Part shown: positions 2,888 to 22,846 of the stretch, one piece after another
Layout of the letters: each line of letters opens with the position of its first letter
How positions within the stretch are numbered: position 1 is the first letter of the stretch
Origin: a virus
DNA length: 42,905 nucleotides
Strand: one strand, 5' to 3'
IMG/VR virus record: IMGVR_UViG_3300037119_000871
Coordinates: 1 to 42,905 of that record
The notes under the pieces: model-generated
Seen by the model: the letters and a program-made list of their open reading frames with translations, nothing else
Database searches by the model: none
Told to the model about the DNA's origin: nothing
Translations under genes and position numbers: made by a program

Positions 2888-3054
2888 GGGTACGCGCATA
2901 CACTGGCGTACCCTGCACTAGCAGCTAGTCCGTAAGGGATTCGGCAAGTGGGTAGGGCAAGCGGGCACAATCACGCCGCTTAGTTCCTACTCTCGCCAAA
3001 CCTATACCGCCTATACAGGCTGTTCCCTAGGGTTAGCTGCTAGTGCAGGGTACG
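2888..3054 (+). ncRNA. Structured RNA element with 21-bp closing stem
   Basis: 2907-2927 and 3034-3054 are perfect reverse complements (21 bp) and enclose about 105 bases with further arms, for example AAGCGG/CCGCTT. The 5' strand has a second partner: GGGTACGC at 2888-2895 pairs with 2906-2913 as an 8-bp hairpin with a 10-base loop. The two pairings exclude each other. The element ends 36 bases before the GTG of the next gene. It may be the 3' domain of the large RNA to its left or a separate 5' leader element. Confidence 0.55.
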
Positions 3055-3090
3055 GTAGCCCTGGTGAACTCCTAACGCGGAGGTTACAAA

Positions 3091-3372
3091 GTGAAGCCGC
3101 TTAACTTGGATACCTTGGATGCCCTAGCAGCATCCGAGCGTAAGCCTGTTCAGCGTAAGCGCACTAAGGTTAGCCCGAAGCATGAAAGAGCTTTGCGGCG
3201 TTACAAAGGTGCGGATAGGTCAGTAACACTCGGAGGCGTTATCGCGCCACCGACGAAGAACGCCGCTAAGACTGCCTTCGCTGCACAAGAGCCTAGGCTG
3301 TCTACTGCTACAGAAGTTCCGTTTGCAAAGGATCGTAAGGTAGTCACGATTCCTAGCAAGTTCGGCTGTTAG
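3091..3372 (+). CDS. Small basic protein, unknown
   Basis: 93 residues from a GTG start with a good ribosome site (GCGGAGG, 9 bases upstream). It is rich in Lys and Arg, with a KRTKVSPKHERALRRYKG stretch in the first half, so nucleic-acid binding is possible. The N-terminus (LNLDTLDALAAS) is a weak look-alike of the short helix shared by five other small proteins here. It is the first gene after the structured RNA block. No family recognised. Confidence 0.7.
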   Translation: MKPLNLDTLDALAASERKPVQRKRTKVSPKHERALRRYKGADRSVTLGGVIAPPTKNAAKTAFAAQEPRLSTATEVPFAKDRKVVTIPSKFGC

Positions 3373-3374
3373 GG

Positions 3375-3452
3375 ATGGCTGTAATAATCATCTCACTAAT
3401 GCCGCTAGTGCTTGCACTTATCGCGGCAATGATTCGCCTAGCATTGCGCTAG
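3375..3452 (+). CDS. Membrane micropeptide, 25 residues
   Basis: Almost the whole peptide is one hydrophobic helix (AVIIISLMPLVLALIAAMI) followed by a short basic end, so it should sit in the membrane with the C-terminus inside. The ATG is two bases after the previous stop, suggesting translational coupling. The ribosome site is poor. Small size makes the call uncertain. Confidence 0.45.
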   Translation: MAVIIISLMPLVLALIAAMIRLALR

Positions 3453-3506
3453 GAAGTTGTAAAGGCAAAGCCGGCAATAAGTGAGCCCCAAACAGAAAGG
3501 GTAACG

Positions 3507-3671
3507 ATGCCGCAGGAGCTGTTCTACGAGGTCACGATTAAGCGCAGTAACGGTGAGGCTTTCGATAGCCGAGACTTCAAGGTTGGAACGTGGAAGGAAA
3601 TCGGCTACTGGCTAGACGAATACGGCTACATCGATCCGGCCTACCACATCGATATCAAGGTGCGCGGCTAA
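3507..3671 (+). CDS. Small protein of unknown function, 54 residues
   Basis: Starts at ATG 3507 after an AGAAAGGG ribosome site. The sequence is MPQELFYEVTIKRSNG, then an aromatic-rich middle (WKEIGYWLDEYGYI), with even, globular-looking composition. No family recognised. It lies in a run of small same-strand genes. Confidence 0.6.
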   Translation: MPQELFYEVTIKRSNGEAFDSRDFKVGTWKEIGYWLDEYGYIDPAYHIDIKVRG

Positions 3672-3731
3672 GTGCCTTAATGAAGGGTAGCTAACCACTA
3701 CCTTTCGATAAGCCACTACCGAAAGGATGGT

Positions 3732-3878
3732 ATGCCTAAGATTCACAAGCCTTTCAAGGGACGATGTGCCTACGAATGGCAAATTGGAAATATCGTTTTC
3801 CAGTTCTGCCATAACGACACTTTCAACTGGCGCGAATACGCCACGTTCTGGCGCTTCAATATCTGGTCATGCAAGTAA
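3732..3878 (+). CDS. Small aromatic-rich protein, 48 residues
   Basis: Starts at ATG 3732 with GAAAGGAT just upstream. It has five Trp/Tyr-type residues in the second half and two or three Cys (CAYEWQ, FQFCHND, WSCK), which may bind a metal. A longer frame at 3727-3909 overlaps it but has serine-rich shadow-like composition. Function unknown. Confidence 0.55.
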   Translation: MPKIHKPFKGRCAYEWQIGNIVFQFCHNDTFNWREYATFWRFNIWSCK

Positions 3879-3895
3879 AGGGGAAGTGAGCTCCA

Positions 3896-4147
3896 ATGCC
3901 GGCACCTAGCCAAGAAATTCTCACAAGTGCTAGAGAACGGGAGATGTATCTTCAAGCAGTCCTAGACCCCGATATCCTCGTGGTACGGGAGAAAGGTAGC
4001 AAGGACAAGTTTTGGCTAGTCGTCGAAAACAGCGACGATGAAGTAGTGGTGATTGAAATGAAGATTAAATCAATCACCAAAACTCAAGTGACTAAGGCAG
4101 TCAAAAACGCCCTAGGAGTTAAAACCACCACAGGAGTCAAGCTATGA
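3896..4147 (+). CDS. Small protein of unknown function, 83 residues
   Basis: ATG 3896 follows an AAGGGGAAG ribosome site. The centre, FWLVVENSDDEVVVIEMKIKSIT, looks like beta strands, and the C-terminus is basic (VTKAVKNALGVKTTTGVKL). The next gene overlaps its stop by ATGA, so they are translationally coupled. No family recognised. Confidence 0.65.
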   Translation: MPAPSQEILTSAREREMYLQAVLDPDILVVREKGSKDKFWLVVENSDDEVVVIEMKIKSITKTQVTKAVKNALGVKTTTGVKL

Positions 4148-4266
4148 AGATCAAGCTGGTGAATGGTACTTGGGTTGTGATTGCCAACTGGCTTGGCGCG
4201 CCCCGCATCGTTTACAAGAACGATAACATCTTCGCTTGCATCCGCTGGGTTAATCGCGCCAGCTAA
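4144..4266 (+). CDS. Small protein of unknown function, 40 residues
   Basis: Begins in the ATGA overlap with the gene before. The sequence MKIKLVNGTWVVIANWLGAP suggests a small beta fold. No family recognised; support comes from coupling and clean composition. Confidence 0.5.
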   Translation: MKIKLVNGTWVVIANWLGAPRIVYKNDNIFACIRWVNRAS

Positions 4267-4592
4267 CAAGTAGAGGGAATGGAGAATCCGGAGGGAATCA
4301 CGCTAACTCCAGGTAGGAGTTGTTAGCAACCTGTACCAAAGGAATTGGGAATTTGGGATAGACTTAACAGTTCACTTACAACCCTACTACTTTAGCAAGT
4401 CTCTCTACAACTTCTCTGGGGAATTGGGTATTTGAACTACGCATGAAGTCACAGGAAAGATGCTGTACCAAATACATAGAGAAGAAAGAGAGAGAGTAGA
4501 GAGATAGGAGTAGTTCTCACGAGATTGCTGTGATAAGCAAGTTACCTGTGCGAGCCACCTCGGACGGGAATAAGCGACTGAGAAAGGGAAAG
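4267..4592 (+). ncRNA. Gene-free stretch with folded RNA and direct repeats
   Basis: No gene is seen over 326 bases. Arms 4401-4408/4496-4503 (8 bp) and 4411-4417/4478-4484 (7 bp) stack into one long stem. A 15-base repeat with one mismatch occurs at 4341-4355 and 4420-4434, and CTGTACCAAA occurs at 4331-4340 and 4463-4472. An extra hairpin lies near 4302-4326. The stretch leads into the ribosome site of the next gene, like the other leader elements here. Identity unknown. Confidence 0.4.
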
Positions 4593-4814
4593 ATGCCTAC
4601 CACGATAGAAGATATCGTAACCGCTTATAATGCCTGGCGTGAAGCGGAAGCCAAGTATTGGGCAGAATGGAAAGATACTTGGAAAATCGCGGGACACCCT
4701 AATCACGCAAAACTCGCAAAAACCCGCGATGCCTTCTATAAGGCAGTAAGCAATTCACCCTACGACGAAATCTTCACTGGCTACGGTTACGAGTTCTGCG
4801 GCTCAAACGACTAA
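4593..4814 (+). CDS. Small helical protein, 73 residues
   Basis: The frame is open from a GTG at 4530, but ATG 4593 has a good ribosome site (AGAAAGGG, 5-bp spacing) and gives a cleaner N-terminus, MPTTIEDIVTAYNAWREAEAKYWAEWKDTW. It is probably all-helical with many Trp. No family recognised. Confidence 0.65.
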   Translation: MPTTIEDIVTAYNAWREAEAKYWAEWKDTWKIAGHPNHAKLAKTRDAFYKAVSNSPYDEIFTGYGYEFCGSND

Positions 4815-4824
4815 GCTACACTCC

Positions 4825-4883
4825 GTCAAGCCCGACGAATAGCCTATGGCTAGCCTAAACCACTTCGGCGGGTCGGGCTTGAC
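4825..4883. repeat. 12-bp inverted repeat running into a -35 box
   Basis: 4825-4836 and 4872-4883 are perfect reverse complements, with a small inner hairpin AGCC-TAT-GGCT. The right arm contains TTGAC of the promoter at 4879. As DNA it could be an operator; in read-through RNA it would be a strong hairpin that could stop transcription, though no U-run follows. Confidence 0.6.
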
Positions 4884-4907
4884 AGAGTCTAGCTAATCTG
4901 CTAAACT
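4879..4907 (+). promoter_or_regulatory. Promoter for gene 4947-5258
   Basis: TTGACA (4879-4884), 17 bases, TAAACT (4902-4907), giving a start near 4914 and a 33-base leader ending in CACGGGAGGTAA, a very strong ribosome site. This suggests high expression. Confidence 0.75.
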
Positions 4908-4946
4908 CTACCATGGCAATCATGCCAAAACACGGGAGGTAAAGCA

Positions 4947-5258
4947 ATGAGTGAGATCACTGGTATCTCAGTCGATCTTATCGCCGAGCTTATGGCGAAT
5001 AGTCGTAACCGGAACGTCTATGGGCCTAAGCTCATCGAGTTCATGGAGTCGGATGAGGCTGGTATCAATCCGGCTGAGGTGTGGCCGCTGGAATGCAACG
5101 GTAAGGCAAGCTCTGTCTACCAGGGCTTCATCACCGCTGTTAAGAAGGCTGAGTTGCAGGACGTGGTTATGGTCAAGCGTCACGAGGAGTCTGTGTTTCT
5201 TATCCATCGTGAGCGTGCTGGACTGGCTGTGACTGAGGCTGCTGCTCAGGCTGCGTAA
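4947..5258 (+). CDS. Abundant small acidic protein, QIAxLL-helix family
   Basis: 103 residues with its own strong promoter and ribosome site. The N-terminus ITGISVDLIAELMANSR matches the short helix found in four other proteins of this window. It also aligns over nearly its full length with the protein at 14300-14665: both have a Y-x(3)-L-x-x-F-(L/M)-E-S-x-E patch, a central QGF with nearby Lys, a beta strand ending V-(Y/F)-L-I, and an Ala-rich tail. They are therefore paralogs. Codon use looks regular and C-ending, fitting high expression. Biochemical role unknown. Confidence 0.85.
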   Translation: MSEITGISVDLIAELMANSRNRNVYGPKLIEFMESDEAGINPAEVWPLECNGKASSVYQGFITAVKKAELQDVVMVKRHEESVFLIHRERAGLAVTEAAAQAA

Positions 5259-5358
5259 CAACAAAGGCACCCCAAGGGTGGACAAGATGGCTAGCACTAT
5301 CCTGAATAAGCCACGCCTGGAAAGGTCGTAATCTAGCAATGTTCACACAGTGGACTAG

Positions 5359-5487
5359 CTAGGTTACTGAGCGGGTAGACTTTCAACGCTACCTTTAGCG
5401 CCAGTTGCGCTATAAGATGTAGGTATGCAGCCTCATGGTAAGCATGAGGATTTTTACCCGCTCAGTAACCTAGTTGACTACTAGGTT
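5359..5487 (+). ncRNA. Multi-branched RNA with 19-bp stem and rival hairpin
   Basis: 5359-5377 pairs perfectly with 5455-5473. Inside are three arms: 5390-5394/5421-5425, its inner hairpin 5396-5401/5407-5412, and CCTCATG (5431-5437)/CATGAGG (5443-5449). The 3' strand of the long stem can instead fold locally: AACCTAGT (5467-5474) with ACTAGGTT (5480-5487), loop of five. No gene covers it. It ends 35 bases before the tRNA-like element. Confidence 0.6.
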
Positions 5488-5521
5488 GGATGGACAAGGT
5501 AAGGGTAAACGTAATGATCGT

Positions 5522-5659
5522 GCCCCTATAGCATGAGGCCAAGTGCGGCCGTCAAGCATAAGTCTAGTCAACTTAAGAAGTCTTGTGCCTTGATTGACTG
5601 TCAAGGTAACGACGCTAAGGCTCGTTCGGCAGGTTGGAGTTCAAATCTCCATAGGGGCT
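5522..5659 (+). ncRNA. tRNA-like RNA with enlarged middle
   Basis: The ends are tRNA: a perfect 7-bp acceptor stem (5522-5528/5652-5658) and a perfect T-arm directly before it (stem TGGAG/CTCCA, 7-base loop TTCAAAT, 5635-5651). A D-arm with GG in its loop fits at 5531-5546. Between D-arm and T-arm there are about 88 bases instead of about 22, closed by GCCG (5548-5551)/CGGC (5627-5630). They hold two hairpins, each with a 7-base loop: 5559-5563/5571-5575 and 5588-5593/5601-5606. No decoding identity can be given and CCA is not encoded. It may be a tmRNA-like reduced molecule, an intron-bearing tRNA or a tRNA mimic. Confidence 0.5.
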
Positions 5660-5788
5660 GCTTATCTTCAAGCTACCCACAGTAGCTAAGTAACGAGGCG
5701 TCATTCCACGCCTACCATCCAAAAGATTATGACACCAACATACCTCAAACCACTAAAGGAGAATCCAGGTGTTCTTTCGATTACTGTT

Positions 5789-5878
5789 ATGCCTGCTATG
5801 TCTAAACTTAGTGGCAAAGCTCGCATGGTAGCAAAGAACAAGCCCGGTTACACATCAACTCTAAGAAAGGTAAAGTAA
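5789..5878 (+). CDS. Possible basic micropeptide, 29 residues
   Basis: MPAMSKLSGKARMVAKNKPGYTSTLRKVK is strongly basic. No ribosome site precedes this ATG. An AAAGGAG at 5756 would better serve a GTG at 5769 in another frame, which gives a 20-residue hydrophobic peptide. At most one of the two is likely real. Confidence 0.3.
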   Translation: MPAMSKLSGKARMVAKNKPGYTSTLRKVK

Positions 5879-5884
5879 ACCACG

Positions 5885-6061
5885 ATGTTCACGCTAAGGC
5901 TAGTCACGGCTGGTGATATGCAGAAGCCTGTCACCATGCGTGACACAGAATTCCCAACTAAGGCAACTTGCCTCAGAGCAATCGGACTGCTCGGTAAGCT
6001 AAACCGTATCGACCGCTTCGGAAGGGTCTACGTAGTCACTCCATCTAAGAGTGGCAAGTAA
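5885..6061 (+). CDS. Small basic protein of unknown function, 58 residues
   Basis: MFTLRLVTAGDMQKPVTMRDTEFP opens a compact alpha/beta-like sequence ending VYVVTPSKSGK. The AAAGG near 5866-5872 is distant but usable. The layout resembles the 54- and 59-residue genes at 3507 and 6498 (strand, charged turn, strand), but I do not claim homology. Confidence 0.5.
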   Translation: MFTLRLVTAGDMQKPVTMRDTEFPTKATCLRAIGLLGKLNRIDRFGRVYVVTPSKSGK

Positions 6062-6099
6062 CAAAGTAATGTCGTCCCAAACTTTATGACGGCATAGTA

Positions 6100-6254
6100 G
6101 GGAGTCACGTACAAAAAACGGACAAAGGTGACTCCCATACCCAAGACTGATAACTCCCTAGTCTCCTGAGGCCATGCGAATGGACATGGAACGGGCTATC
6201 AAGCCTAAGACACCGTTGGTCACTAGGAAAGTTATCCCCTAAAAAGACGGGGAT
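6100..6254 (+). ncRNA. Folded gene-free stretch with competing hairpins
   Basis: Three arms are visible: GGGAGTCAC (6100-6108)/GTGACTCCC (6128-6136); a long-range stem 6149-6154/6231-6236 plus 6157-6162/6222-6227; and ATCCCC (6234-6239)/GGGGAT (6249-6254). The last shares bases with the long-range stem, so the two compete. No gene lies between 6062 and 6497. Confidence 0.45.
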
Positions 6255-6289
6255 CGTAGGGGGCGCGGCCTATCGTACCAAAACGCGCA

Positions 6290-6476
6290 ATAAAGCTAGT
6301 GAAGGGTAACAAAGATACCATTCTGAAACAAGGATGGCTACCTCCAATGAGTTACGGGTAAACTTTCCGCTTATGTCTAAGTCAGAGAGCCGGAAGCTAT
6401 ATCCCGTCTGTACGCAGCTAGAATTGCGTCTAGGACTTAAAGGAGTTCTGGCATTGTTACCCTTCACTAGCTTTAT
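6290..6476 (+). ncRNA. Structured RNA closed by a perfect 23-bp stem
   Basis: 6290-6312 and 6454-6476 are exact reverse complements, the longest such pair seen in the window. The 141 enclosed bases hold smaller arms, for example CTAGA/TCTAG and ACGCA/TGCGT near 6414-6432. The stem ends about ten bases before the strong ribosome site ACGGGAGG of the next gene. It could be an RNase III site, a 5' stabilizer or a switch. A 65-residue minus-strand frame across it is only a by-product of the symmetry. Confidence 0.6.
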
Positions 6477-6497
6477 CTAAACAACGGGAGGCAACAA

Positions 6498-6677
6498 ATG
6501 CCTAATGATTCAGTCAAGATTGAAATGCTTAACCAGGGAACTGGTGAGTGGGTTCCACTTGTAGTTGAGGTTGGTTCTTATCAAGATGCTGCTGATAAAA
6601 TCGACTCGTTTAGGGCATACGGCAGTAAGGGACAGTATCGTATTGTCACAACTGTCTACTTCCCATACACGTCATGA
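6498..6677 (+). CDS. Small protein of unknown function, 59 residues
   Basis: Has the strong ribosome site CAACGGGAGG typical of first genes of operons here. The sequence is MPNDSVKIEMLNQGTGEWVPLVVEV, then a helix and a strand (QYRIVTTVYFPYTS). It is the first gene after the 23-bp-stem RNA and is coupled by ATGA to the next. Confidence 0.6.
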   Translation: MPNDSVKIEMLNQGTGEWVPLVVEVGSYQDAADKIDSFRAYGSKGQYRIVTTVYFPYTS

Positions 6678-6754
6678 AGCGCAACTACATCACCCAACTT
6701 CTACTTGATATCCAACGGTATCTAGAGTTCATGGATATTGCACATGGCAACTGA
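6674..6754 (+). CDS. Micropeptide, 26 residues
   Basis: MKRNYITQLLLDIQRYLEFMDIAHGN, a likely amphipathic helix. It overlaps both neighbours (ATGA with the gene before, ten bases with the SprT-like gene after), so it may mainly serve translational coupling. Confidence 0.4.
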   Translation: MKRNYITQLLLDIQRYLEFMDIAHGN

Positions 6755-7211
6755 TATCAAGCAGATTACTGCGACCTATGCACTAGCCAATCAGCTACTC
6801 AGTGAACATGGCTTGACTGAGAAAGGTTGGCGCTTTGACTTCTCAACCTCTGCACACCGTGTGGGGGTTTGTAAACACGGTCGCCGGCTAATTGAACTAT
6901 CTCTGCATCGTATAGGTAGCGACCCCGATGTTATCCGCGACGTTATCCTACATGAGATAGCTCATGCGCTTGTTGGCCCTGGTCATGGTCACGATGATAC
7001 GTGGCGTGCTATGTGCCGAAAGATAGGCGCACGTCCTGACCGCTTGGTTTACGATAGCGTAACCACTAAACAATACAACTTTGAAATCGTTTGTGAATCG
7101 TGTGGTAATGTAGTGGGTAGGCGTTACCGTGTCAAGCGAGCACTACTCAATAACTACGTGACTACTTGCTGTAAGGCAAAGATGATCGCCTACGATATAC
7201 GGGAGGGTTAA
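6744..7211 (+). CDS. SprT-like zinc metalloprotease
   Basis: 155 residues from ATG 6744. The motif HEIAH (residues 70-74) with His81/83 further on is the SprT/Spartan zinc-protease signature. A C-terminal zinc ribbon follows (CESCG ... TCCKAKM), as in the SprT family. Cellular relatives cut proteins crosslinked to DNA; a phage might remove host proteins from DNA or capsids, but the target is unknown. An alternative TTG at 6738 adds two residues. It is three bases before the next gene. Confidence 0.85.
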   Translation: MATDIKQITATYALANQLLSEHGLTEKGWRFDFSTSAHRVGVCKHGRRLIELSLHRIGSDPDVIRDVILHEIAHALVGPGHGHDDTWRAMCRKIGARPDRLVYDSVTTKQYNFEIVCESCGNVVGRRYRVKRALLNNYVTTCCKAKMIAYDIREG

Positions 7212-7213
7212 AG

Positions 7214-7522
7214 ATGAAAACGGTACACGGTTTTACAGTTAAGCGTATCGATCGAGTTAACGAACGTGAGGCAAGAGGGGATCAGGAGTTGTGGTCTATC
7301 TCGCCGCCCGTTAAGTTCTACCATCGCGGTAAAGTTTGTACAGCCGATTTCGTAGTGGTAAGTGCGGTTGTCACATTCGGTTCAGGCCCGGAAACCTACA
7401 TCTTTCCTTCTGACCGTAATGGTGAGGTAATCAACTGGGGTGAGTTGCCTGGTTCGCAGCGCGGAACTATGAATCATGAGGCAACTATCATGAACGTTAA
7501 CCACGACAATAAGGAGTGGTAA
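7214..7522 (+). CDS. Protein of unknown function, 102 residues
   Basis: MKTVHGFTVKRIDRVNEREARGDQELWSI, with beta-type composition afterwards (FVVVSAVVTFGSGPETYIF). The ribosome site GGGAGG is immediately upstream, inside the SprT-like gene. No domain recognised. Confidence 0.7.
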   Translation: MKTVHGFTVKRIDRVNEREARGDQELWSISPPVKFYHRGKVCTADFVVVSAVVTFGSGPETYIFPSDRNGEVINWGELPGSQRGTMNHEATIMNVNHDNKEW

Positions 7523-7524
7523 CC

Positions 7525-7695
7525 ATGCCTAGAGATAACTACGTCGTAACGGGCGTACTTGTCAATGGCCGACGGTTTAAGGCTATCTACACACCTAGTT
7601 ACCATCACGCTATGGGAATCAATCTGTATCGTGGTTCGGTATGGGAAATGCAGTCCGACGGTTCGCGTAAGCTACTCAGAAGGGTGTGGAACTAA
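7525..7695 (+). CDS. Small protein of unknown function, 56 residues
   Basis: Starts at ATG 7525 after AAGGAG. MPRDNYVVTGVLVNGRRFKAIYT looks like a small beta sheet, with a basic C-terminus. Its stop overlaps the next ATG (TAATG). Confidence 0.6.
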   Translation: MPRDNYVVTGVLVNGRRFKAIYTPSYHHAMGINLYRGSVWEMQSDGSRKLLRRVWN

Positions 7696-9130: not shown

Positions 9131-9144
9131 AGGGGGTGAACTAA

Positions 9145-14299: not shown

Positions 14300-14665
14300 A
14301 TGGCAAGAAAGCGTAACACAGCAACATCAACTAATAACACAAACACAGGAGAGCATAAAATGGCAGGTCTTTCGGCAGAGCAGATCGCACAGTTGCTTGG
14401 CAAGACTCGCACCAAGGGTCAGTACGTTGTCTACCTCAACCAGTTCCTTGAGTCTGGTGAGGGTGGACTGTGCGTTAACGAGCAGTGGGTTGACCTTCGT
14501 GATAAGAAGGCTGCTACTCTTAAGCAGGGCTTCGAGGGTGCGAAGGATAACAAGGAAGCGCAGGATGGTTCCGAGAACGTGAAGGTTATCGCTAATGAGG
14601 ATAAGGTCTACCTCATTAACCTGGCCGCAGCGGGTATCGAGGTTCCTGAGGAGGCTGCTGCTTAA
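14300..14665 (+). CDS. Abundant small protein, QIAxLL-helix family, two starts
   Basis: Two in-frame starts both have good ribosome sites: ATG 14300 (GCGGGAGGTAAGGATTA) and ATG 14360 (CAGGAGAGCATAAA). The short form begins MAGLSAEQIAQLLGKTR, the shared helix. The long form adds 20 polar, unstructured residues (RKRNTATSTNNTNTGEHK). The short form aligns along its length with the protein at 4947-5258, so they are paralogs. Both have their own promoter and C-rich codons typical of high expression. Both forms might be made. Role unknown. Confidence 0.85.
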   Translation: MARKRNTATSTNNTNTGEHKMAGLSAEQIAQLLGKTRTKGQYVVYLNQFLESGEGGLCVNEQWVDLRDKKAATLKQGFEGAKDNKEAQDGSENVKVIANEDKVYLINLAAAGIEVPEEAAA

Positions 14666-14678
14666 AGCAGTAAGCACC

Positions 14679-14760
14679 AATAAGCTAGCTATCTTACGGT
14701 AGCTAGCTTATTAAGGTACTAGGGTTGGGCACCTGATCTTAGTACCTTAATAAGCTAGTT
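14679..14760 (+). promoter_or_regulatory. Switch-like RNA: 13-bp hairpin versus 19-bp stem
   Basis: 14679-14691 pairs perfectly with 14700-14712 (8-base loop). But 14703-14721 also pairs perfectly with 14740-14758 (19 bp, extendable by a G-U and an A-U pair). The middle strand 14703-14712 is common to both, so only one can form. Six bases after the second stem comes the ribosome site AAAGGAGG of gene 14777. This is the geometry of an attenuator or translation switch. No U-run makes it a classical terminator. Confidence 0.65.
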
Positions 14761-14776: not shown

Positions 14777-14959
14777 ATGAATATTATGGCAACTTCCGAC
14801 ACTGATATTACTGCTGATGAGTTCATTAGGCGTTACATCGCTGTATGGGGTGAGGACGAGGTAGACTACCTTATCGAGTCCGGTTACATTCCCGTTCAGC
14901 TTTCTAACGGTAAGTGGACTTGGCTGTATACCACAGCTGTTACTGCTAACGTCGGGTAA
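14777..14959 (+). CDS. Small acidic protein, 60 residues
   Basis: AAAGGAGGAAGT before the ATG. MNIMATSDTDITADEFIRRYIAVWGEDEVDYLIESGYIPV: helical, acidic, with a beta end. An ITADEFIRRYI stretch faintly resembles the shared helix. Controlled perhaps by the switch-like RNA upstream. Confidence 0.7.
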   Translation: MNIMATSDTDITADEFIRRYIAVWGEDEVDYLIESGYIPVQLSNGKWTWLYTTAVTANVG

Positions 14960-15382: not shown

Positions 15383-15676
15383 GGGCGTGAAATGGTTTCG
15401 ACGGGGTAGTATGGGTACAGATTCGCAGCGGTATGGTGACACCTAAATCACCACAACAAACCAAAAGCCAACGTTAATTCGTTCGCTCTGGGTCATGTGC
15501 TTGCTAAGCACAGCGACCTTGCCTTTTCTGCGTAGGTCGAAACAGAAACGCAGAACGTAATACCAGTAACAAGGTGCTGACAACCTTAAAGGTCAGTGGT
15601 GGAGGCGTAAGAAAAGCTGCTAGATAGAATGTGTATACCGCTACGTCGGACGCGGGTTCGACTCCCGCCACGTCCA
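15383..15676 (+). ncRNA. ssrA: tmRNA
   Basis: Rescues stalled ribosomes by acting first as alanine tRNA and then as a short mRNA. The 5' end GGGCGTG pairs with CACGTCC (15669-15675) and keeps the G3-U wobble that marks alanine charging. The D-loop TGAAATGGTTTCGAC and T-arm GCGGGTTCGACTCCCGC are canonical. A pseudoknot fits at 15430-15453 (GGT/ACC and TGGTGA/TCACCA). The resume codon is probably GCC 15467. The tag frame runs 22 codons to TAG 15533, which sits in the helix 15526-15533/15548-15555 as in other tmRNAs. The tag starts ANVNSF and ends DLAFSA. CCA is not encoded. About 294 nt is short for the class. Confidence 0.93.
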
Positions 15677-15684
15677 TAGTAATA

Positions 15685-15818
15685 ACGTAGTTGAATGAGA
15701 GATACTGAGGCAACCGAATAGCTATCCAGAACCCATGTGCCTCATGGGCTTGCTGATAGTGATAAGCAAGATCGCCACTAGCGTGAGCTTTCGGACAGTA
15801 TCTCTCATTGAGCTACGT
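15685..15818 (+). ncRNA. Stem-closed RNA module after the tmRNA, copy 1
   Basis: 15694-15707 pairs perfectly with 15796-15809 (14 bp). The stem extends through TT/AG to ACGTAG (15685-15690)/CTACGT (15813-15818) with one mismatch. Inside are CCGAA/TTCGG, CCCAT/ATGGG and CTTGCT/AGCAAG arms, a branched fold. It begins nine bases after the tmRNA, so it is on the same precursor. The outer signature ACGTAGTTGAAT...ATTGAGCTACGT is repeated in the next module. Confidence 0.6.
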
Positions 15819-15997
15819 AGTTGAATACGGGTAGCGGATATGCACGTTAGACTTCGGGTAGCTGAGCAATCAGTACCAAGTTTTAACTGCTAACTCCGCT
15901 GCCCGTATTGAGCTACGTTATCCAAGGTCTAGGTTTTAATCCTGACGGGTTAAAGAGGTCGCATACCGCACGACTAGATACAGGTAACGTAGTTCAT
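15815..15997 (+). ncRNA. Stem-closed RNA module, copy 2, with rival pairing
   Basis: Shares the palindrome CTACGTAG (15813-15820) with copy 1. 15824-15838 pairs with 15895-15909 (15 bp, one G-U), again inside ACGTAGTTG...GAGCTACGT. Its 3' strand 15909-15919 can instead pair with 15986-15996 (AACGTAGTTCA, one G-U). About 14 bases later comes CGGGAGG of gene 16022. The inner sequence differs from copy 1, so only the frame of the module is conserved. Confidence 0.55.
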
Positions 15998-16268: not shown

Positions 16269-16332
16269 TGCGGCCTAGCGTGGTCCGAATCTTAGCAACC
16301 CCACACCACCCAGCTAAGATTGCTAGGCCGCA
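16269..16332 (+). ncRNA. Very strong 20-bp hairpin
   Basis: TGCGGCCTAGC (16269-16279) pairs with 16322-16332, and AATCTTAGC (16288-16296) with 16313-16321, separated by an 8-base bulge on one side only. The loop is AACCCCACACCACCCA. It starts five bases after the stop of gene 16022. It is GC-rich but no U-run follows, so it is either a 3'-end protector or a processing site rather than a simple terminator. Confidence 0.6.
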
Positions 16333-16397: not shown

Positions 16398-16497
16398 TTG
16401 AATGAGGTACACCTAACGCCGCTGGTGTGCCTCATTGAGCTACGTAGGTTGGAGAAATCCAGACGACTTGTGAATAGACAGGACTACGTAGCTCAAT
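16398..16497 (+). promoter_or_regulatory. Switch-like RNA before the helicase gene
   Basis: The TTGAAT...ATTGAGCTACGTAG frame of the modules after the tmRNA occurs again. 16401-16413 pairs with 16424-16436 (13 bp, one G-U). The strand 16434-16447 can instead pair perfectly with 16484-16497 (14 bp). The two pairings share 16434-16436, and the wider context makes them exclusive. The ribosome site ACGGGAGG of the helicase gene follows 14 bases later. Confidence 0.55.
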
Positions 16498-16522
16498 CGT
16501 ACTTTAATCAACGGGAGGTTAG

Positions 16523-18106
16523 ATGAGTACGCAAGAAAGGAAGCCTATCCTTAAGAAGAAGCCAACGGGCAAGTTTAAGCGTCAGTGGTTTCAGAATGAA
16601 GATATCCCTATCTTGGCTCAGTTGAATGCTAGTGCAAACTGGTCAGAGATGGGTGCGATGAAAACCACCACAGCAGAGTGGTTGTGGGAACAGAAGCTTG
16701 CTCATATTCCTAACCCACGCTGTCTAGTTATCACAACTAAGTCAGGTAAGGGGACGTACTATGAGTCGCTTGCGGAGGTACTGCCAGAGTGGGACGTTTA
16801 TGCTGTTAGTCCCCAGCGTACTAATTTGGTTGTTGGTAGCAAGCCCGTTCCTCTCGATGTACGGCTTCCTACTCCTTTGCATATGCGTCCAGTTGTTGTT
16901 GTTGCTCATTATCATTGTTTCACGGATAGGGCGTGCATCCCGAAGCAAGTGATGGGTGAGAATGGTCTGCCTGTTATCCGTGAAGATGGGCTGTTTGAGA
17001 TGACTGAGCCTAAGTGTCTCAATCTACTCAGAATGCATTGGGATTACATCGTCGTGGATGAAGCACATAGAATCAAGAACCACGATGCTCAATGGACTAA
17101 GAACATCAAGAAACTTAAGTCACAGTTCAAGCACATCATGACAGGTACAGGGTTCGTCAACAACCCTGCCGAGGTATGGTCGTTGCTGAACTTCCTCTAT
17201 CCCGAAACGTATACCTCGTATTGGAAGTTTCGTGAGCGTTACTGCCAGGAGGAAGTTGACTGGTCAGGCTATCGCAAGATTGTCGGCATTAAGCCAGATG
17301 TGGAAGATGAGTTCCGTGACTTGGTTAGGCGTGTCGGAATCAGACGTAACATGATCGAGTGCTTCCCTGATATTAAGGAACCTATCGAGACTGTTATTGC
17401 TGTCGATCTTAACCCGACTCAGCGTAAAATGTACAATCAGATTCAAGACGAGCTTTGGACACTTGACCAGGCGGGTACACCGCTACACAGTCCTAACGTC
17501 TTGTCGATGCTTAACCGTCTACGGCAGATTTGCGTAGCTACACCGGAAGTTGTCGGTGAGCATTACGATCCTAAGCAGGAGCGCGTAGTCCTAGAGGTTA
17601 AGTTGACTGAGCCGTCTAGTAAGCTTGATGCTACTATGGAGATCATCGACGGCCTTGAGTGGGATAAGGATAGAAAGGATCAAGTGGTGGTGTTCTCTAA
17701 CTTCCGCGATCCACTGGAACTACTCAAGACTCGCCTTGATAAGAAGTCTATCCCATATCTGCATCTACACGCAGGTATGAATGACAGTGATCGTTACACG
17801 ATGTGGCATGACGAGTGGCCTAAGAAGGAACATCAGGTATTCCTGTGTACGCTAGCTGTAGGTAGTGAGAGCATTAACCTCACGTCAGCAAACAGGGCTA
17901 TCTTTCTAGATCAGGCTTGGAGTCCTGCCATGAATAAGCAGGCTATTGGGCGTGTCTATCGTCCCGGTCAAACGGAGGTTGCACAGCTTATCTACGTTCG
18001 TGCAGACGACACTGTAGACTTCCGTGTGCTTGACGCAGTTGAGACTAAGGGCGCATGGTTCACGCAAATCTTCGGAGCGAGAAATGGCGATGAAGAAGAT
18101 GAGTGA
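16523..18106 (+). CDS. SNF2-type DNA helicase/translocase
   Basis: 527 residues, a superfamily 2 ATPase. Walker A is GAMKTTT (43-49), lacking the usual GxGKT middle glycine. Motif II is DEAH (about 179-182), motif III MTGTG, and motif VI QAIGRVYRPGQ (about 472-482), the SNF2 form of the arginine-finger motif. VVVFSNFRDPLELL marks the second RecA domain. It would move along DNA in replication, recombination or repair. It has a strong ribosome site after a switch-like RNA and starts the helicase/nuclease operon. Confidence 0.88.
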   Translation: MSTQERKPILKKKPTGKFKRQWFQNEDIPILAQLNASANWSEMGAMKTTTAEWLWEQKLAHIPNPRCLVITTKSGKGTYYESLAEVLPEWDVYAVSPQRTNLVVGSKPVPLDVRLPTPLHMRPVVVVAHYHCFTDRACIPKQVMGENGLPVIREDGLFEMTEPKCLNLLRMHWDYIVVDEAHRIKNHDAQWTKNIKKLKSQFKHIMTGTGFVNNPAEVWSLLNFLYPETYTSYWKFRERYCQEEVDWSGYRKIVGIKPDVEDEFRDLVRRVGIRRNMIECFPDIKEPIETVIAVDLNPTQRKMYNQIQDELWTLDQAGTPLHSPNVLSMLNRLRQICVATPEVVGEHYDPKQERVVLEVKLTEPSSKLDATMEIIDGLEWDKDRKDQVVVFSNFRDPLELLKTRLDKKSIPYLHLHAGMNDSDRYTMWHDEWPKKEHQVFLCTLAVGSESINLTSANRAIFLDQAWSPAMNKQAIGRVYRPGQTEVAQLIYVRADDTVDFRVLDAVETKGAWFTQIFGARNGDEEDE

Positions 18107-18527
18107 GGTAATTCAGTCTATTGAGGAAGTAACGGTTAAGGACGAAGGTAAGTGGGAGAGTAACGCAGGATATAAGATCGTTACCTCAGATCAGGAGATT
18201 CTCTTTCTGATTGATGATGGACGGTCTTGCTGCGAATCGTGGGGTTACTTCACAAGCGAAGATGATTTCGTAAAGTTCGTTGGTGCTATTCTAACGGGTA
18301 TCACCGTCACTGATACAAATAGAACATCACGCGTTATCAATCAGGACTATAATTACGATAGTTCCGATGATGAGGATATCACCTTGGATCAAGGCGACGT
18401 GATGTTTGTAGATGTCGAGACTGATCGTGGTATCCTACAGCTTGTAGCTTACAACGCTCATAATGGCTACTACGGCCACGAAGCTAAGATCATTTCTAAG
18501 CAACTAACTCTAGAAAAGGTTCTCTAA
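18084..18527 (+). CDS. Conserved-looking protein of unknown function, 147 residues
   Basis: ATG 18084 is preceded by GGAGCGA and overlaps the helicase end by 23 bases. It is beta-rich with CCESWGYF and, near the end, GILQLVAYNAHNGYYGHEAKI. Such aromatic patterns occur in small phage proteins of unknown role. Acidic middle (SSDDEDITLDQGD). Confidence 0.7.
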   Translation: MAMKKMSEVIQSIEEVTVKDEGKWESNAGYKIVTSDQEILFLIDDGRSCCESWGYFTSEDDFVKFVGAILTGITVTDTNRTSRVINQDYNYDSSDDEDITLDQGDVMFVDVETDRGILQLVAYNAHNGYYGHEAKIISKQLTLEKVL

Positions 18528-18718
18528 TGGCAATGAACGTGAACGTACCGTTTAACAAGTACGATATCGACACAGACTTTCCTCTGATGTACGATATCGC
18601 AAAGAGGGTAGATGATAACGAGAAGATGGGCTTTAACAACTCACCGCTCAATGTAGAGATTGAAGCAGCTATGCGTGAGCTATGGATGGCTCGCTCAAAC
18701 AATAGAGCAGAAAGGTAA
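18527..18718 (+). CDS. Small protein of unknown function, 63 residues
   Basis: TAATG-coupled to the gene before. MAMNVNVPFNKYDIDTDFPLMYDIAKRVDDNEKMG, polar with a C-terminal helix. No family recognised. Confidence 0.6.
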   Translation: MAMNVNVPFNKYDIDTDFPLMYDIAKRVDDNEKMGFNNSPLNVEIEAAMRELWMARSNNRAER

Positions 18719-18719
18719 C

Positions 18720-18986
18720 ATGGGACTTAGGCTTACAGATGATGATGTTGTTGCATTCTACGATGATACGAGTGGTGTAGCCTTCGGGCCTATCTTTAAT
18801 AGTCATGGCGATGCAGAGGATTTTCTTGATTGGATTAAGGTAGGTGCCGATGAAAAGCGCACGTTCAAGCACAATACACATACACTGTTCTTTGTGGATG
18901 ATCCTAGACAGTATCGTGCTGCCGAACTGATGACGCTGTATAGTCTTTGGCGTAGAGAAACTAGAGATACAGACGACGATCTGTAA
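18720..18986 (+). CDS. Acidic protein of unknown function, 88 residues
   Basis: ATG 18720 follows AAAGGTAAC; longer starts in frame lie inside the previous gene. MGLRLTDDDVVAFYDDTSGVAFGP, with FLDWIKVGAD in the middle and an acidic end (RDTDDDL). Unknown role. Confidence 0.65.
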   Translation: MGLRLTDDDVVAFYDDTSGVAFGPIFNSHGDAEDFLDWIKVGADEKRTFKHNTHTLFFVDDPRQYRAAELMTLYSLWRRETRDTDDDL

Positions 18987-19001
18987 GTATTCCTAAAGGG
19001 C

Positions 19002-19030
19002 TTGACACGGCAGGGCAAACCTGCTAGCAT
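19002..19030 (+). promoter_or_regulatory. Promoter for the nuclease-ATPase gene group
   Basis: TTGACA (19002-19007), 17 bases, TAGCAT (19025-19030), start near 19037, only six bases before the CAACGGGAGG ribosome site. It drives the recombination genes from 19065 onward. Confidence 0.75.
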
Positions 19031-19064
19031 TGTCCATTCAGCAACGGGAGGTTCCAGGGTTCTT

Positions 19065-20369
19065 ATGTCAGAAACCACTGGTAGCGCAGGTACGACAGCT
19101 CTATGGGTTCCGCCAGAAATCCCATCTAAGTGGGATATCATTCCGATTCACAACAGTGACCGCGCATCATTCAAGCGGTGTCGTCGCTATTGGGATTGGT
19201 CTAGTCCAGCGCGTAGTAACTTGACTATTCGTGCTGACGTATTTGGTGTGAATCCCAACTTCTTCCAAGGTAACGGGATACATTACGCCTTGGAGAATCT
19301 ATACCAGCCAGGTATTAAACGTGACCCTATCGAGTCATTCTCTGAATGGTTCGATATCCAATGGCGTGGCGGTACAGTCACAGAAGATTGGCTACCGCGT
19401 GTGTACGATCTACAGCCAGTTAGAATCAATGTAGGTACGGCGCAAGGTCACGACGGTAAGCTTGGTATGCCGCATATGGATATGTACCGTGTTCGTGGGC
19501 TTGAGGATATCTTGCCTGATCCAGACCACGATGAATGGCTTGGGTATCGTGAGCTAGGTATCGAAATGCTCAAGAACTACAAGCGGTATGCTGAGATTTA
19601 CGATGACTTCGAGGTTCTCGTAGCAGAGCATGACTTCTCAGTTCCGATCTGGGACTTTGAGAATAACTGTACACTTCGCATGGTTGATATGCGCGAGAAC
19701 TCGCCTAACTATGGTAAGAAGCTAGAAGTCCATTCTCGTGGTCGTATGGATGCTATTAAGCGTGGCGTGTCTAACGGTCGCATGGGTATCATGGATCATA
19801 AGACAGCACAGAAGATTACTGAGGATGAGTTTGAAAAGCTGGAAACCGATGAGCAATGCACGTCGTATCTACACGCCGCAGAAGTTGAGGCTACGTATTA
19901 CGACTTGCCTCACAAGGGAGAGCAGCTTGAGGAAGTCTTGTACAACGTACTCAGGAAGGCTTACCCTAAGCCACCTACGATGCTCAAGAACGGTATGTTC
20001 AGCGTCAACCGTGATGAGGAAAGCACAACCTACGAGTTGTTGCAGAATTTCATCAACACGCAAATGCCAGGTGTACCGTTGTCGGAGAAACAACAGGGTT
20101 ATGTAGACTACGTTCGTGATGTGGGTGAGGAACAGTTCATCATCCGTAAGCACGTCCGTCGTAATCGCCACCAACTACAGAACGCAGGTAAGCGTCTGTA
20201 TATGGAGGCTATGGATATGTTGTCACCTGATCTACGTATCTATCCTAACCTCAGGAACGATTGGGCGTGTCTGCGTTGTACGTTCCGCGCACCTTGTCTA
20301 GCTATCGAAGATGGTAGCGACGCATCACAGCTAATTGACTCCAACTACACAGGCAACATGGATCGGTAG
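19065..20369 (+). CDS. Cas4/RecB-like PD-(D/E)XK nuclease
   Basis: 434 residues from ATG 19065; frame upstream of this lies in the promoter and is not translated. FKRCRRYWDW near the N-terminus holds the first cysteine of a Cas4-type iron-sulfur site. GIMDHKTAQ (about 241-249) carries the D-x-K nuclease motif, followed by the QCTSYLHAAE helix. CLRCTFRAPC near 403 supplies three more cysteines. AddB/Cas4-like phage nucleases trim DNA ends in recombination. No Cas genes are nearby. It lies just before the Sak4-like/DUF669 pair. Confidence 0.85.
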   Translation: MSETTGSAGTTALWVPPEIPSKWDIIPIHNSDRASFKRCRRYWDWSSPARSNLTIRADVFGVNPNFFQGNGIHYALENLYQPGIKRDPIESFSEWFDIQWRGGTVTEDWLPRVYDLQPVRINVGTAQGHDGKLGMPHMDMYRVRGLEDILPDPDHDEWLGYRELGIEMLKNYKRYAEIYDDFEVLVAEHDFSVPIWDFENNCTLRMVDMRENSPNYGKKLEVHSRGRMDAIKRGVSNGRMGIMDHKTAQKITEDEFEKLETDEQCTSYLHAAEVEATYYDLPHKGEQLEEVLYNVLRKAYPKPPTMLKNGMFSVNRDEESTTYELLQNFINTQMPGVPLSEKQQGYVDYVRDVGEEQFIIRKHVRRNRHQLQNAGKRLYMEAMDMLSPDLRIYPNLRNDWACLRCTFRAPCLAIEDGSDASQLIDSNYTGNMDR

Positions 20370-20374
20370 CAAGA

Positions 20375-20578
20375 ATGACTGACTACGAAATCTTGACTGA
20401 TATGTTCAATCGTTCGGGGATCGTCTTTGAAATTCCATCTATACCTGAAACTGTTATAGTCGTTAGGGAAGATACTTACGGGCCTAACGAAAAAACGAAT
20501 AAGGGGTATAGCGGATTCTATACCGCTTTTGAATTCGACGAGAATAAAAAGCTTACATCAATGGGAGCATTTGAATAG
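20375..20578 (+). CDS. Small acidic protein, 67 residues
   Basis: MTDYEILTDMFNRSGIVFEIPSIPETVIVV, then a polar loop and FYTAFEFDENKKLTSMGAFE. Its pattern recalls small alpha/beta phage proteins, none recognised. The ribosome site is weak (GGTAGCAAG). Confidence 0.6.
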   Translation: MTDYEILTDMFNRSGIVFEIPSIPETVIVVREDTYGPNEKTNKGYSGFYTAFEFDENKKLTSMGAFE

Positions 20579-20769
20579 TGTCCACCAATTTCTATAGGCT
20601 CGCCATCGCCGGTTTGATTGGATTGTTTATAGGCGGATATGCAGATGCTCACGATGTTAGCCTTATCAGAACCATGACAACAATTTTTCTTGTGGTAGCT
20701 GCTTATACTTTGCTGTGCGATCTGATACAAGATTGGTTCCGAAAGGGTGATGATGGGCCTAGCGGCTAG
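20578..20769 (+). CDS. Small membrane protein, 63 residues
   Basis: GTG start overlapping the previous stop. Two hydrophobic helices (LAIAGLIGLFIGGY and TIFLVVAAYTLLCDLI) with a short basic end. Envelope location is likely; role unknown. Confidence 0.6.
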   Translation: MSTNFYRLAIAGLIGLFIGGYADAHDVSLIRTMTTIFLVVAAYTLLCDLIQDWFRKGDDGPSG

Positions 20770-21031
20770 CCAAATTGCAGACTTGCTTGAACGTGATGAA
20801 CTAGGTAGAACGGTTCATCAACGTAGGCAAGACTTCTACGCTTCGTTCTATCCGGCAGCAATCTTTCTTCTTGACCTAGACTACGAGAATCTATTTGATC
20901 CGGCTAACGGGGGAAGTTTACGGGAGTGGGTGTTTAGGTGTAAAGGCTGTGGTAAGGAAGTCGAGCGCATCTATCGCAAACACCACCACAGGGATCACCT
21001 ACATCAGTTCAATAAGATACGGGAGCAATGA
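20753..21031 (+). CDS. QIAxLL-helix protein with zinc site
   Basis: Of three adjacent starts (20747, 20750, 20753), ATG 20753 has the best spacing to AAAGGG and gives MGLAASQIADLLERDE, matching the shared helix. The last 30 residues hold CKGCGKEVERIYRKHHHRDHLH, a CxxC plus His site for zinc. 92 residues. Function unknown. Confidence 0.75.
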   Translation: MGLAASQIADLLERDELGRTVHQRRQDFYASFYPAAIFLLDLDYENLFDPANGGSLREWVFRCKGCGKEVERIYRKHHHRDHLHQFNKIREQ

Positions 21032-21189
21032 TGGAAAAGCTTGTTACAATGTGGGATCACGAACCTGCTCTAACTGAAACTGAACAAATGCGTGACAAGA
21101 TCAACGAGTTGGTTAATGCTGTTAATCAGTTGATTGACATTAATGAGCGATTGGCAGCCAGTGTCACTAACGCCAGAACAGATAGCTGA
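21031..21189 (+). CDS. Coiled-coil micro-protein, 52 residues
   Basis: MEKLVTMWDHEPALTETEQMRDKINELVNAVNQLIDINERLAAS shows heptad spacing of Leu, Ile and Val from residue 17 to 43, so a coiled coil is likely. It overlaps both neighbours, and the next gene starts within it. Confidence 0.6.
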   Translation: MEKLVTMWDHEPALTETEQMRDKINELVNAVNQLIDINERLAASVTNARTDS

Positions 21190-21403
21190 ACTTCTTAAGC
21201 CTAAAGAAACGGTAGCGACAGTTCCGCAAGCAGGGCCGCTACGTTGGTTCGACAAGGAAATGCGTTGTGCGTCAAGGGGGTGTAGCTCGCCAACATTTGC
21301 TAAAGTTAATGGTACACCACGTTGTATGATGCACGCACTACGTGAACTGAATGAAATGCTAACCAGGTTAATGATAAGACCTGATGAGGGAGACGCGGTT
21401 TAA
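21143..21403 (+). CDS. QIAxLL-helix protein with zinc site
   Basis: 86 residues from ATG 21143. Residues 8-17 are SLTPEQIAEL, the shared helix. A zinc-type site CASRGCSS...CMMH follows, then a helix. It is directly upstream of the Sak4-like ATPase (ATG overlap), hinting at work in the same process. No ribosome site precedes this ATG; it may depend on coupling. Confidence 0.75.
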   Translation: MSDWQPVSLTPEQIAELLKPKETVATVPQAGPLRWFDKEMRCASRGCSSPTFAKVNGTPRCMMHALRELNEMLTRLMIRPDEGDAV

Positions 21404-22182
21404 TGGCAACAGCGGCAATTAGTAAAGAGGGTCAGGAACTCAGAGAGCTTCTGCAAGTAAAGCCGCCTTCTGAGGTAGTAGATTGGATTAACCTGCTTGT
21501 CTATGGTGATCCAGGTTCGGGTAAGACTTGGCTTACTGGTACTGCGGCAGATGATAAACGTCTGAGTCCTCTGTTGATTGCAGATGTTGAGGGTGGGCTA
21601 ACCACACTTCGCCACAGGAAAGACGTGGACGTTAAGCCGATCCGTTCGATGAAAGACCTAGAAGCATTGTACAACACGCTCTACAAGTCTATCAAGGATG
21701 GCAAGATTCACTATGGTACAGTTGCCATTGACAGTCTCTCTGAGCTTGCCGACCTTGATATGCGCGACATTATGAAAGAGGCTTACGCTAAGAATCCTGA
21801 CAAGGTTGATAAGGACGTACCTAGTCAGAGAGAGTGGGGTAAGGCTCGCGCTCATATGCGTACCATCGTTCGCGCATTCCGTGATCTTCCCTGCCACGTT
21901 ATCTATACTGCCCAGGTTGCTACGCTACAGGAGGAAGGCCAGCCTACTAAGTATTTCCCTGGCCTATCCGGTAAGCTTAGGACAGAAATTCCTGGCTTTA
22001 TGGATATCGTCGGCTATCTCACAGCCGAATCACAACAGGGGGTGATTGAAAGGAGACTACAAATCCAGGGTACTCGTAGGGTCGTAGCTAAGGATCGTAC
22101 ATCTAGCTTGGCCCCAGAAGCAGGTTTCATCGAAAGCCCCACACTACCAATGATGTGGGATCTCATTCACTCGGCGGGTTAA
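21403..22182 (+). CDS. Sak4-like RecA-fold ATPase
   Basis: 259 residues. Walker A GDPGSGKT (35-42), Walker B-like VAIDSLSEL (about 108-116), and a glutamine-bearing strand VIYTAQVATLQEE fit the phage AAA/Sak4 group (Pfam AAA_24 type). Those proteins pair single strands or load recombinases together with an SSB-like partner. The DUF669-like gene that usually accompanies it follows directly. The call is firm on fold, good on role. Confidence 0.85.
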   Translation: MATAAISKEGQELRELLQVKPPSEVVDWINLLVYGDPGSGKTWLTGTAADDKRLSPLLIADVEGGLTTLRHRKDVDVKPIRSMKDLEALYNTLYKSIKDGKIHYGTVAIDSLSELADLDMRDIMKEAYAKNPDKVDKDVPSQREWGKARAHMRTIVRAFRDLPCHVIYTAQVATLQEEGQPTKYFPGLSGKLRTEIPGFMDIVGYLTAESQQGVIERRLQIQGTRRVVAKDRTSSLAPEAGFIESPTLPMMWDLIHSAG

Positions 22183-22192
22183 GTTTAACCCG
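22175..22192. repeat. Short palindrome at the end of the ATPase gene
   Basis: CGGGTTAA and TTAACCCG separated by GT. It lies across the ATPase stop codon and 20 bases before the next start. It could be a repressor site or a small hairpin that separates translation of the two genes. Confidence 0.4.
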
Positions 22193-22212
22193 TCTAAGTA
22201 TAAGGAGTTATT

Positions 22213-22734
22213 TTGTCAGATTCAGGCCAAGGCCCGCTTAATCTGTCCGATGCTGATACCAGTGGTTTTGCTCCGCTTGAGGCTGGTAGGTATCCTGCTG
22301 AGGTTTTTGAAGCGAAGTGGGATGCTGTTAAGAATACGTCTGGAACGGGAAGGCTTCCCGCAGGTACTCCGTGTGTCAAGGTTCAGTTCAAGATCACTGA
22401 CCCGGATCTAAAGGAAGCGCGTGGTTATGAGCCTAGGGTGTTTGCACAGTACAATATCCCTGGCCCCGACTACGACAAGGGTAAGGCATCGAAGATGAAG
22501 GGAATGTTCGTTAATTTCCTCGTCGCTCTTGGTGAGGATGAGAGCAAGGTTAAGACGGCTAAGTACAATCTCGACCTTGAGGATCTTCTGGGCCGTGAGT
22601 GCGTTGTCGTTATCTCTAAGGAACAGAAGAAGGATCAGAATGGCAATCTGATCGAGGACGAGTATAACAACCCGGTTAAGGGTGTTAAGCCGGCTGGTAC
22701 TGCTACAGGCGGTAGTTCTGAGGGTCTGCTCTAA
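22213..22734 (+). CDS. DUF669-like protein, probable ssDNA binding
   Basis: 173 residues from TTG 22213 (AAGGAG, seven bases upstream). GRYPAEVFEAKWDAVKNTSGTGRLPAGTPCVKVQFKI and a following FVNFLVALGED region are typical of DUF669, found next to Sak4-like ATPases and thought to bind single-stranded DNA. An acidic, Gly/Ser-rich tail (GTATGGSSEGLL) resembles SSB tips. Acts in recombination/replication with its neighbour. Confidence 0.75.
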   Translation: MSDSGQGPLNLSDADTSGFAPLEAGRYPAEVFEAKWDAVKNTSGTGRLPAGTPCVKVQFKITDPDLKEARGYEPRVFAQYNIPGPDYDKGKASKMKGMFVNFLVALGEDESKVKTAKYNLDLEDLLGRECVVVISKEQKKDQNGNLIEDEYNNPVKGVKPAGTATGGSSEGLL

Positions 22735-22744
22735 GTAACAGGTG

Positions 22745-22846
22745 TAGGGGGACAAGCGCCCCCTATACTAAGCGGTCTAGTTTGCTGACATACTTGGGCT
22801 GACGGCTGAGTATGTAGGATGGGCGCGACTAGACCGCTTAGTATAG
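22745..22846 (+). promoter_or_regulatory. Structured leader with 19-bp stem before primase gene
   Basis: 22763-22781 and 22828-22846 are exact reverse complements and enclose ACATACT (22788-22794)/AGTATGT (22809-22815). A rival hairpin, TAGGGGG (22745-22751)/CCCCCTA (22759-22765), shares the first three bases of the long stem. The GTG of the primase gene is 26 bases after it. Same build as the elements at 2888 and 6100. Confidence 0.6.

Follow-up and report, generated by a model that had tools for sequence, protein, structure and literature searches.

Long intercistronic stems kept by pairing rather than sequence in uncultured soil phages: candidate RNA-processing signals

Structured elements between phage genes have been described in several systems. 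RNase III cleaves the early transcripts of T7 and lambda (PMC5371410), while actinophages of Cluster K carry inverted repeats termed ESAS immediately upstream of start codons, inside the wider intergenic spaces of the non-structural gene region and linked to particular gene families; their arms hold a conserved 17-bp sequence, and the case for pairing as RNA was judged slight by the authors (PMC3203893). Microbacterium phages of Cluster EG have 18-bp inverted repeats 14–22 bp before starts (PMC7302621), and Cluster O phages have 17-bp repeats (PMC4351075). Here, we describe a set of long stem elements (E1 to E9) in a 42.9-kilobase (kb) phage contig from IMG/VR (record IMGVR_UViG_3300037119_000871, positions 1 to 42,905, GC content 48%; this whole stretch is hereafter the window), and compare them with these systems and with uncultured relatives.

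The T7 early-mRNA sites R0.3, R0.5, R1, R1.1 and R1.3, and those of the lambda N leader, cIII and int, are likewise intercistronic or leader hairpins of the early region lying shortly before ribosome sites, and in them, as in the elements here, structure outweighs sequence (PMC5371410). The T7 sites are short, irregular and mutually similar, whereas the elements described here are longer, near-perfect and unrelated in sequence, often with large branched interiors and a second hairpin that shares one arm with the long stem. Features of RNase III sites found here are the intergenic position among forward genes, the two-turn helix and pairing kept without sequence; cutting itself is putative. In ESAS the sequence is conserved, but here it is free and the pairing is kept: no single arm consensus of the ESAS type was found within the genome, the arms of E1–E9 differ, and subsets alone share ends (the two E6 stems with E8a; a GGGTTAG set in relative G001). 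The conserved 13-bp Cluster K SAS (GGGATAGGAGCCC, at the ribosome site) was absent from the leaders examined, which carry varied Shine-Dalgarno sequences. The EG and O repeats are, like our elements, inverted and in many cases intergenic, with only the EG repeats just before starts; unlike our elements, they are in each genome a single conserved palindrome around a 2–3-nucleotide (nt) centre. The statement in an initial annotation of this DNA that no such phage system had been described was thus too strong, as the T7/lambda hairpins and ESAS are on record, though none has this build, and no paper in a partial literature search describes it. We file the elements with the intercistronic phage RNA structures.

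In the window, ten perfect stems reach 12 bp, where 100 dinucleotide shuffles predict 0.34 per genome; five reach at least 19 bp, and the shuffles gave none of at least 16 bp. The ten stems listed by the initial annotation are all present at or very near the positions it reported, and all lie in gaps between called genes, as it said (genes were called with a simple purpose-made caller, and counts vary with thresholds). Seven are perfect, namely 2907/3034 (21 bp), 5359/5455 (19), 6290/6454 (23), 14703/14740 (19), 15694/15796 (14), 16434/16484 (14) and 22763/22828 (19); two are imperfect (4825/4872 and 15824/15895), and 16269/16322 is a bulged helix of 11 + 8 bp. Among the ten perfect stems found against the shuffles, the one at 31793-31836 was missing from its list and resembles a bidirectional terminator. 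The elements are as follows.

2887–2914, + strand: alternative 5' hairpin P1 of E1 (AGGGTACGC / GCGTACCCT), 3' arm common with the E1 long stem, the two folds 1.0 kcal/mol apart
2907–3054, + strand: E1 long stem, 21 bp, perfect, branched 106-nt interior
4814–4894, + strand: E2 long stem, 23 bp with 2 mismatches, 4825/4872 being its 12-bp core
4884–4909, + strand: possible alternative 3' hairpin of E2 (AGAGT..GCTA / ..ACTCT), re-using its right arm; read directly, under the 6-bp perfect threshold of shared-arm detection
5359–5473, + strand: E3 long stem, 19 bp, perfect, 77-nt interior
5467–5487, + strand: alternative 3' hairpin of E3 (AACCTAGT / ACTAGGTT), sharing the right arm of E3
6290–6476, + strand: E4 long stem, 23 bp, perfect, branched 141-nt interior, ATG with ACGGGAGG 21 nt on
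14679–14712, + strand: 5' hairpin P1 of E5, 13 bp, 3' arm common with the E5 long stem, folds 1.3 kcal/mol apart
14703–14758, + strand: E5 long stem P2, 19 bp, perfect, ATG 14777 18 nt on; pairing kept at the same site in 13 phages
15685–15818, + strand: E6A long stem, 23 bp, ends ..GTTGAAT / ATTGAGC.. with a G.G mismatch
15815–15918, + strand: E6B long stem, 24-bp helix with 3 imperfect positions, ends as E6A, inner helix different
16269–16332, + strand: E7 stem, 11 bp + 8 bp around an 8–9-nt bulge
16401–16436, + strand: E8a hairpin (AATGAGGTACACC / GGTGTGCCTCATT), 3-nt overlap with the left arm of E8b
16434–16497, + strand: E8b long stem, 14 bp, perfect, helicase ATG 16523 25 nt on
22763–22846, + strand: E9 long stem, 19 bp, perfect, in the gap between the SSB-like and primase genes

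A DNA polymerase search for relatives returned 25 IMG/VR contigs, mostly at ~55–61% identity; the contigs of eleven relatives were read as tiles, and alignment-based scans added 41 helicase and 80 primase loci. The relatives carry like stems with other sequences in the same early-gene gaps, and two cultured, distantly related Arthrobacter phages taken as controls had no perfect stem of at least 16 bp. The clearest case is E5, which lies between a gene of ~120 amino acids (14300-14665) and one of ~60 (14777-14959). Gaps at this site were picked by protein profiles of both flanking genes, not by the stem, giving a set of 14 including the window (two being near copies of each other), and a long stem was present in 14/14; in shuffled gaps even an 11-bp stem almost never arises. 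MAFFT could not align these gaps, so we counted pairing in helix register across 13 stems: 233 of 234 cells were paired with zero A.C mismatches, and two-sided changes occurred in all 18 columns, while the left arms had a mean identity of 49% and a minimum of 11%. Compensatory changes in relatives, which the initial annotation had itself proposed as a test of function, are abundant, and its family of structured RNA elements is borne out as one under selection for pairing. The loss of stems beside retained genes, which it had named as evidence against function, was not seen at E5 but does occur at the primase site, where 41/80 loci had neither a long stem nor a tRNA-like structure at the thresholds used. 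It is well supported that evolution has preserved the fold and not the letters, by RNA-level selection on pairing.

The gene upstream of E5 belongs to a small protein family of unknown function with two paralogues in the window (4947-5258 and 14300-14665), not found in cultured phages. A long stem follows both of them in the window and usually in relatives, including 3 of the 4 relatives tested at E3. We considered the E5-upstream gene as a possible RNA-binding protein and rejected it, as AlphaFold gave a predicted template modelling score (pTM) of 0.54, no PDB match was significant, and only weak winged-helix-like matches appeared. Separately, three relatives (L055 (G012), L075:2228-2288 and L078:2218-2276) carry a conserved GGGCCGGA...(hairpin)...ACATGACCG module, inside or just after an E5-type element, that resembles a small, structured RNA motif whose internal loops are conserved.

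Pooling 84 distinct non-terminator elements, we found a sense-strand excess of G.U over A.C mismatches (35 vs. 12, p = 5e-4) and of G.G over C.C (15 vs. 2); the former indicates that the selected molecule is RNA. Helix lengths peak at 19–24 bp with a maximum of 27 and a steep drop above 25 bp. The minimum helix for RNase III is quoted as 22 nt (PMC5371410), and the peak of the element helices lies near this two-turn length (~22 bp).

We also asked where in the gaps the elements sit. A forward gene lies downstream of 87/98, and 83/98 stand between two forward genes, which we assume share one transcript. Forward gaps of at least 80 nt hold an element in 40/149 cases and gaps of 20–79 nt in 0/46. 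The initial annotation placed the elements before ribosome sites, and some do adjoin starts; overall, however, the elements fill their gaps (median distance 28.5 nt to the upstream gene, 36 nt to the downstream one), and the next start is nearer than the previous stop in only 19 of 46, so the stems mark gaps, not starts. The more specific claim of a strong ribosome site within 10–40 bases holds for about six of the ten listed stems (2907, 6290, 14703, 16434, 22763 and, roughly, 4825), the E2 stem at 4825 lying 52–63 nt from its start and the gene after E9 having a GTG start and a weak ribosome site. It fails for 5359, where a tRNA-like RNA follows E3 and the next called start is 255 nt away, and for 15694, 15824 and 16269 (E6, E7), which lie 100–210 nt from a called start.

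Two further features had gone unmentioned by the initial annotation. The first is the shared-arm hairpin. At a detection threshold of 6 perfect bp, 25/72 elements had a shorter 5'-side hairpin (P1) sharing the outer left arm of the long stem (P2), against 1.9 expected, and 13/72 had a 3'-side hairpin sharing the right arm, against 2.2 expected, giving three-strand X-X'-X modules. The P1 and long-stem folds differ by no more than 2 kcal/mol in 11 of the 25, including E1 and, in most phages, the E5 site, where they are ~1 kcal/mol apart at total energies of -40 to -60; in about ten other shared-arm elements the long stem is favoured by 7–12 kcal/mol.

The second feature is the alternation of stems with tRNA-like structures. 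In mitochondrial transcripts, tRNAs between genes mark cut sites, an arrangement known as tRNA punctuation. The tRNA-like structures found here are as follows.

5522–5658, + strand: tRNA-like structure, 7-bp acceptor GCCCCTA/TAGGGGC, canonical T-arm TGGAG-TTCAAAT-CTCCA
L144:1386-1496; L141:1394-1496; L150:1357-1466; L061:4231-4277 (minus strand); L171; L168: primase-site tRNA-like structures in relatives, paired 7-bp acceptor, invariant GGTTCGATTCC-type T-arm

The structure at 5522-5658 is uncalled by standard ARAGORN and below Rfam thresholds; ARAGORN reads it as tRNA-Glu(ctc) only when a 66-nt intron is permitted. The T-arm motif occurs 23 times in intergenic sequence (268 kb) against once in genes (876 kb), the matches including some ordinary tRNAs and many uncalled by ARAGORN. 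The primase gap, which holds E9 in the window, has a stem of at least 10 bp in about 30/80 loci; in the six relatives listed above, a tRNA-like structure with a paired acceptor ends 3–4 nt upstream of a primase ATG that lacks a Shine-Dalgarno sequence, and two tRNA genes occupy this gap in the distant phage Anansi. Such structures could mark cut sites as tRNAs do in mitochondria, with the difference that in these phages they alternate with long stems and that their role in cutting is putative. They may be substrates of RNase P or RNase Z in place of a stem, and 3'-end processing would leave a nearly leaderless primase mRNA. That a two-turn helix and a tRNA mimic alternate at a single position agrees more closely with RNA processing than with the alternatives.

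Based on these observations, we propose that the elements are intercistronic RNA-processing signals which host RNase III cuts and whose shared arm caps or releases the products, a reading to which we give a probability of about one half. They would be cis-acting structures in early polycistronic transcripts, with selection acting on a two-turn helix of ~19–25 bp and not on its sequence. We infer that the genes are transcribed as single messages and that RNase III, cutting the long helix, would split the upstream message (or transfer-messenger RNA, tmRNA) from the downstream one. In X-X'-X modules the outer arm X' could then leave the cut helix and pair with the neighbouring copy of X. The upstream RNA would thereby gain a hairpin at its 3' end as a cap, and the leader of the following gene would be released as a single strand; in the mirror arrangement of E3, the cap would fall on the 5' end of the downstream RNA. 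The initial annotation had offered RNase III sites, mRNA caps or switches; we prefer the first, with caps and switches also compatible and the shared-arm hairpins fitting both. Several points weigh against our proposal. The elements are not obligatory, as only those 40 of 149 long forward gaps hold one at the thresholds used. The anatomy differs from that of T7, in whose early region no stem above 10 bp was found and whose RNase III sites are shorter and irregular, and some elements have large branched interiors beyond the need of cutting alone. C-to-T strand bias could add part of the G.U excess, and a search for a prophage or host among genome contigs found no prophage and only distant helicases. 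Finally, at E5 the end of P2 lies 0–10 nt before the Shine-Dalgarno sequence in most phages, which suits translational control too.

That last point leads to the main rival, a translational switch in which X' shuttles between upstream X (P1) and downstream X (P2), opening or closing the ribosome site of the gene that follows, as might happen when ribosomes finish the upstream gene. It is kept alive by the nearly equal energies of the two folds and by the short distance from P2 to the Shine-Dalgarno sequence at E5, and Shine-Dalgarno sequences are also stronger after elements (28/43 vs. 144/330 genes, p = 0.009). We nonetheless consider it less likely than processing: about half of the elements are away from a start (45/84 lie within 70 nt), most have no detected shared-arm hairpin, many that do favour P2 by the wide energy margin given above, and near-equal energies are in part expected because X is a direct repeat. 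Nor does a switch require two-turn perfect helices or account for the tRNA-like substitutes. Clearly less probable still is that the stems work uncut as stability elements, stopping exonucleases and shielding the 5' or 3' ends of mRNAs. Very stable hairpins in gene gaps would serve this purpose, and some P1 hairpins have GNRA-type tetraloops (GAAA, GCAA, GGAA, GUAA), but the two-turn length peak and the drop beyond it suit a cutting enzyme better, and a cap requires no shared arm. We regard as very improbable a role at the DNA level, either as protein-bound inverted repeats of the kind proposed for ESAS or as cruciforms. Start-near inverted repeats of actinophages have been read in this way (PMC3203893, PMC7302621), yet no common sequence links our elements to each other, nor the phages at one site, and a DNA palindrome has no strand preference, so the sense-strand mismatch bias counts against it. 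Intrinsic terminators or attenuators, suggested by strong hairpins between genes, are the least credible, as the elements are not built as a short GC hairpin with T-run (TTTT after only 3/87), loops of 40–140 nt are far too long, and genes go on in the same direction.

Turning to the surroundings of individual elements, the right arm of E2 overlaps the -35 box of a sigma70-like promoter (TTGACA-17-TAAACT, 4879-4907), although sigma70-like matches in gaps were not above shuffled counts. The ends TTGAAT/ATTGAG recur in the two E6 stems and in E8a (in E8a only to TTGAAT) around inner helices that differ, a pattern resembling duplication and subsequent compensated change. A pseudoknot could form in E7 between the bulge GTGGT and ACCAC in the hairpin loop. 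Just before E1, ~1 kb (2055-3090) lacks a convincing gene and is predicted to be heavily structured, a possible non-coding RNA or DNA region. E6 follows one further RNA gene.

15383–15679, + strand: phage tmRNA, E6 starting a few bases past its 3' end

This tmRNA is the sole Rfam match within the window at gathering score (matches in relatives are tRNAs), and its predicted tag ends in ...RKAAR rather than the usual ALAA-like end.

The window encodes terminase, tail, helicase, exonuclease, Sak4-like, SSB-like, primase and DNA polymerase genes. A DNA search of cultured phages found no close relatives, and single-protein scans with the primase and the helicase found none either; the nearest cultured relatives are actinophages, at <30% identity for the primase, and the group is one of uncultured soil phages. 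Elsewhere in the window, the word (A)AAACC(A/G)CCACAG recurs at at least seven places, all on the + strand (4121, 11925, 16661, 20979, 29539, 31202, 36922), some copies overlapping ribosome sites, and seven degenerate 48-nt repeats spaced ~60 or 120 bases apart lie at 33024-33860, in a minus-strand gene for a predicted structural protein.

In these phages, base-pairing alone is under strong selection at set positions of an operon, with the sequence rewritten between relatives. This suggests an enzyme that reads structure or a switch that works through its fold, and it supplies many natural variants for direct test. The strand-sharing design suggests a way in which a cut site could finish both product ends, and the alternation of stems with tRNA-like structures at one site allows the use of tRNA mimics as cut marks by phages to be asked about. 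A more tentative and less probable reading is that the elements together form an RNA punctuation system of this phage group, in which fast-rewritten long helices, built as three-strand X-X'-X modules with two near-equal folds and interchangeable with tRNA-like structures, would cut, cap and release messages, possibly yielding leaderless mRNAs after those of the tRNA-like type.

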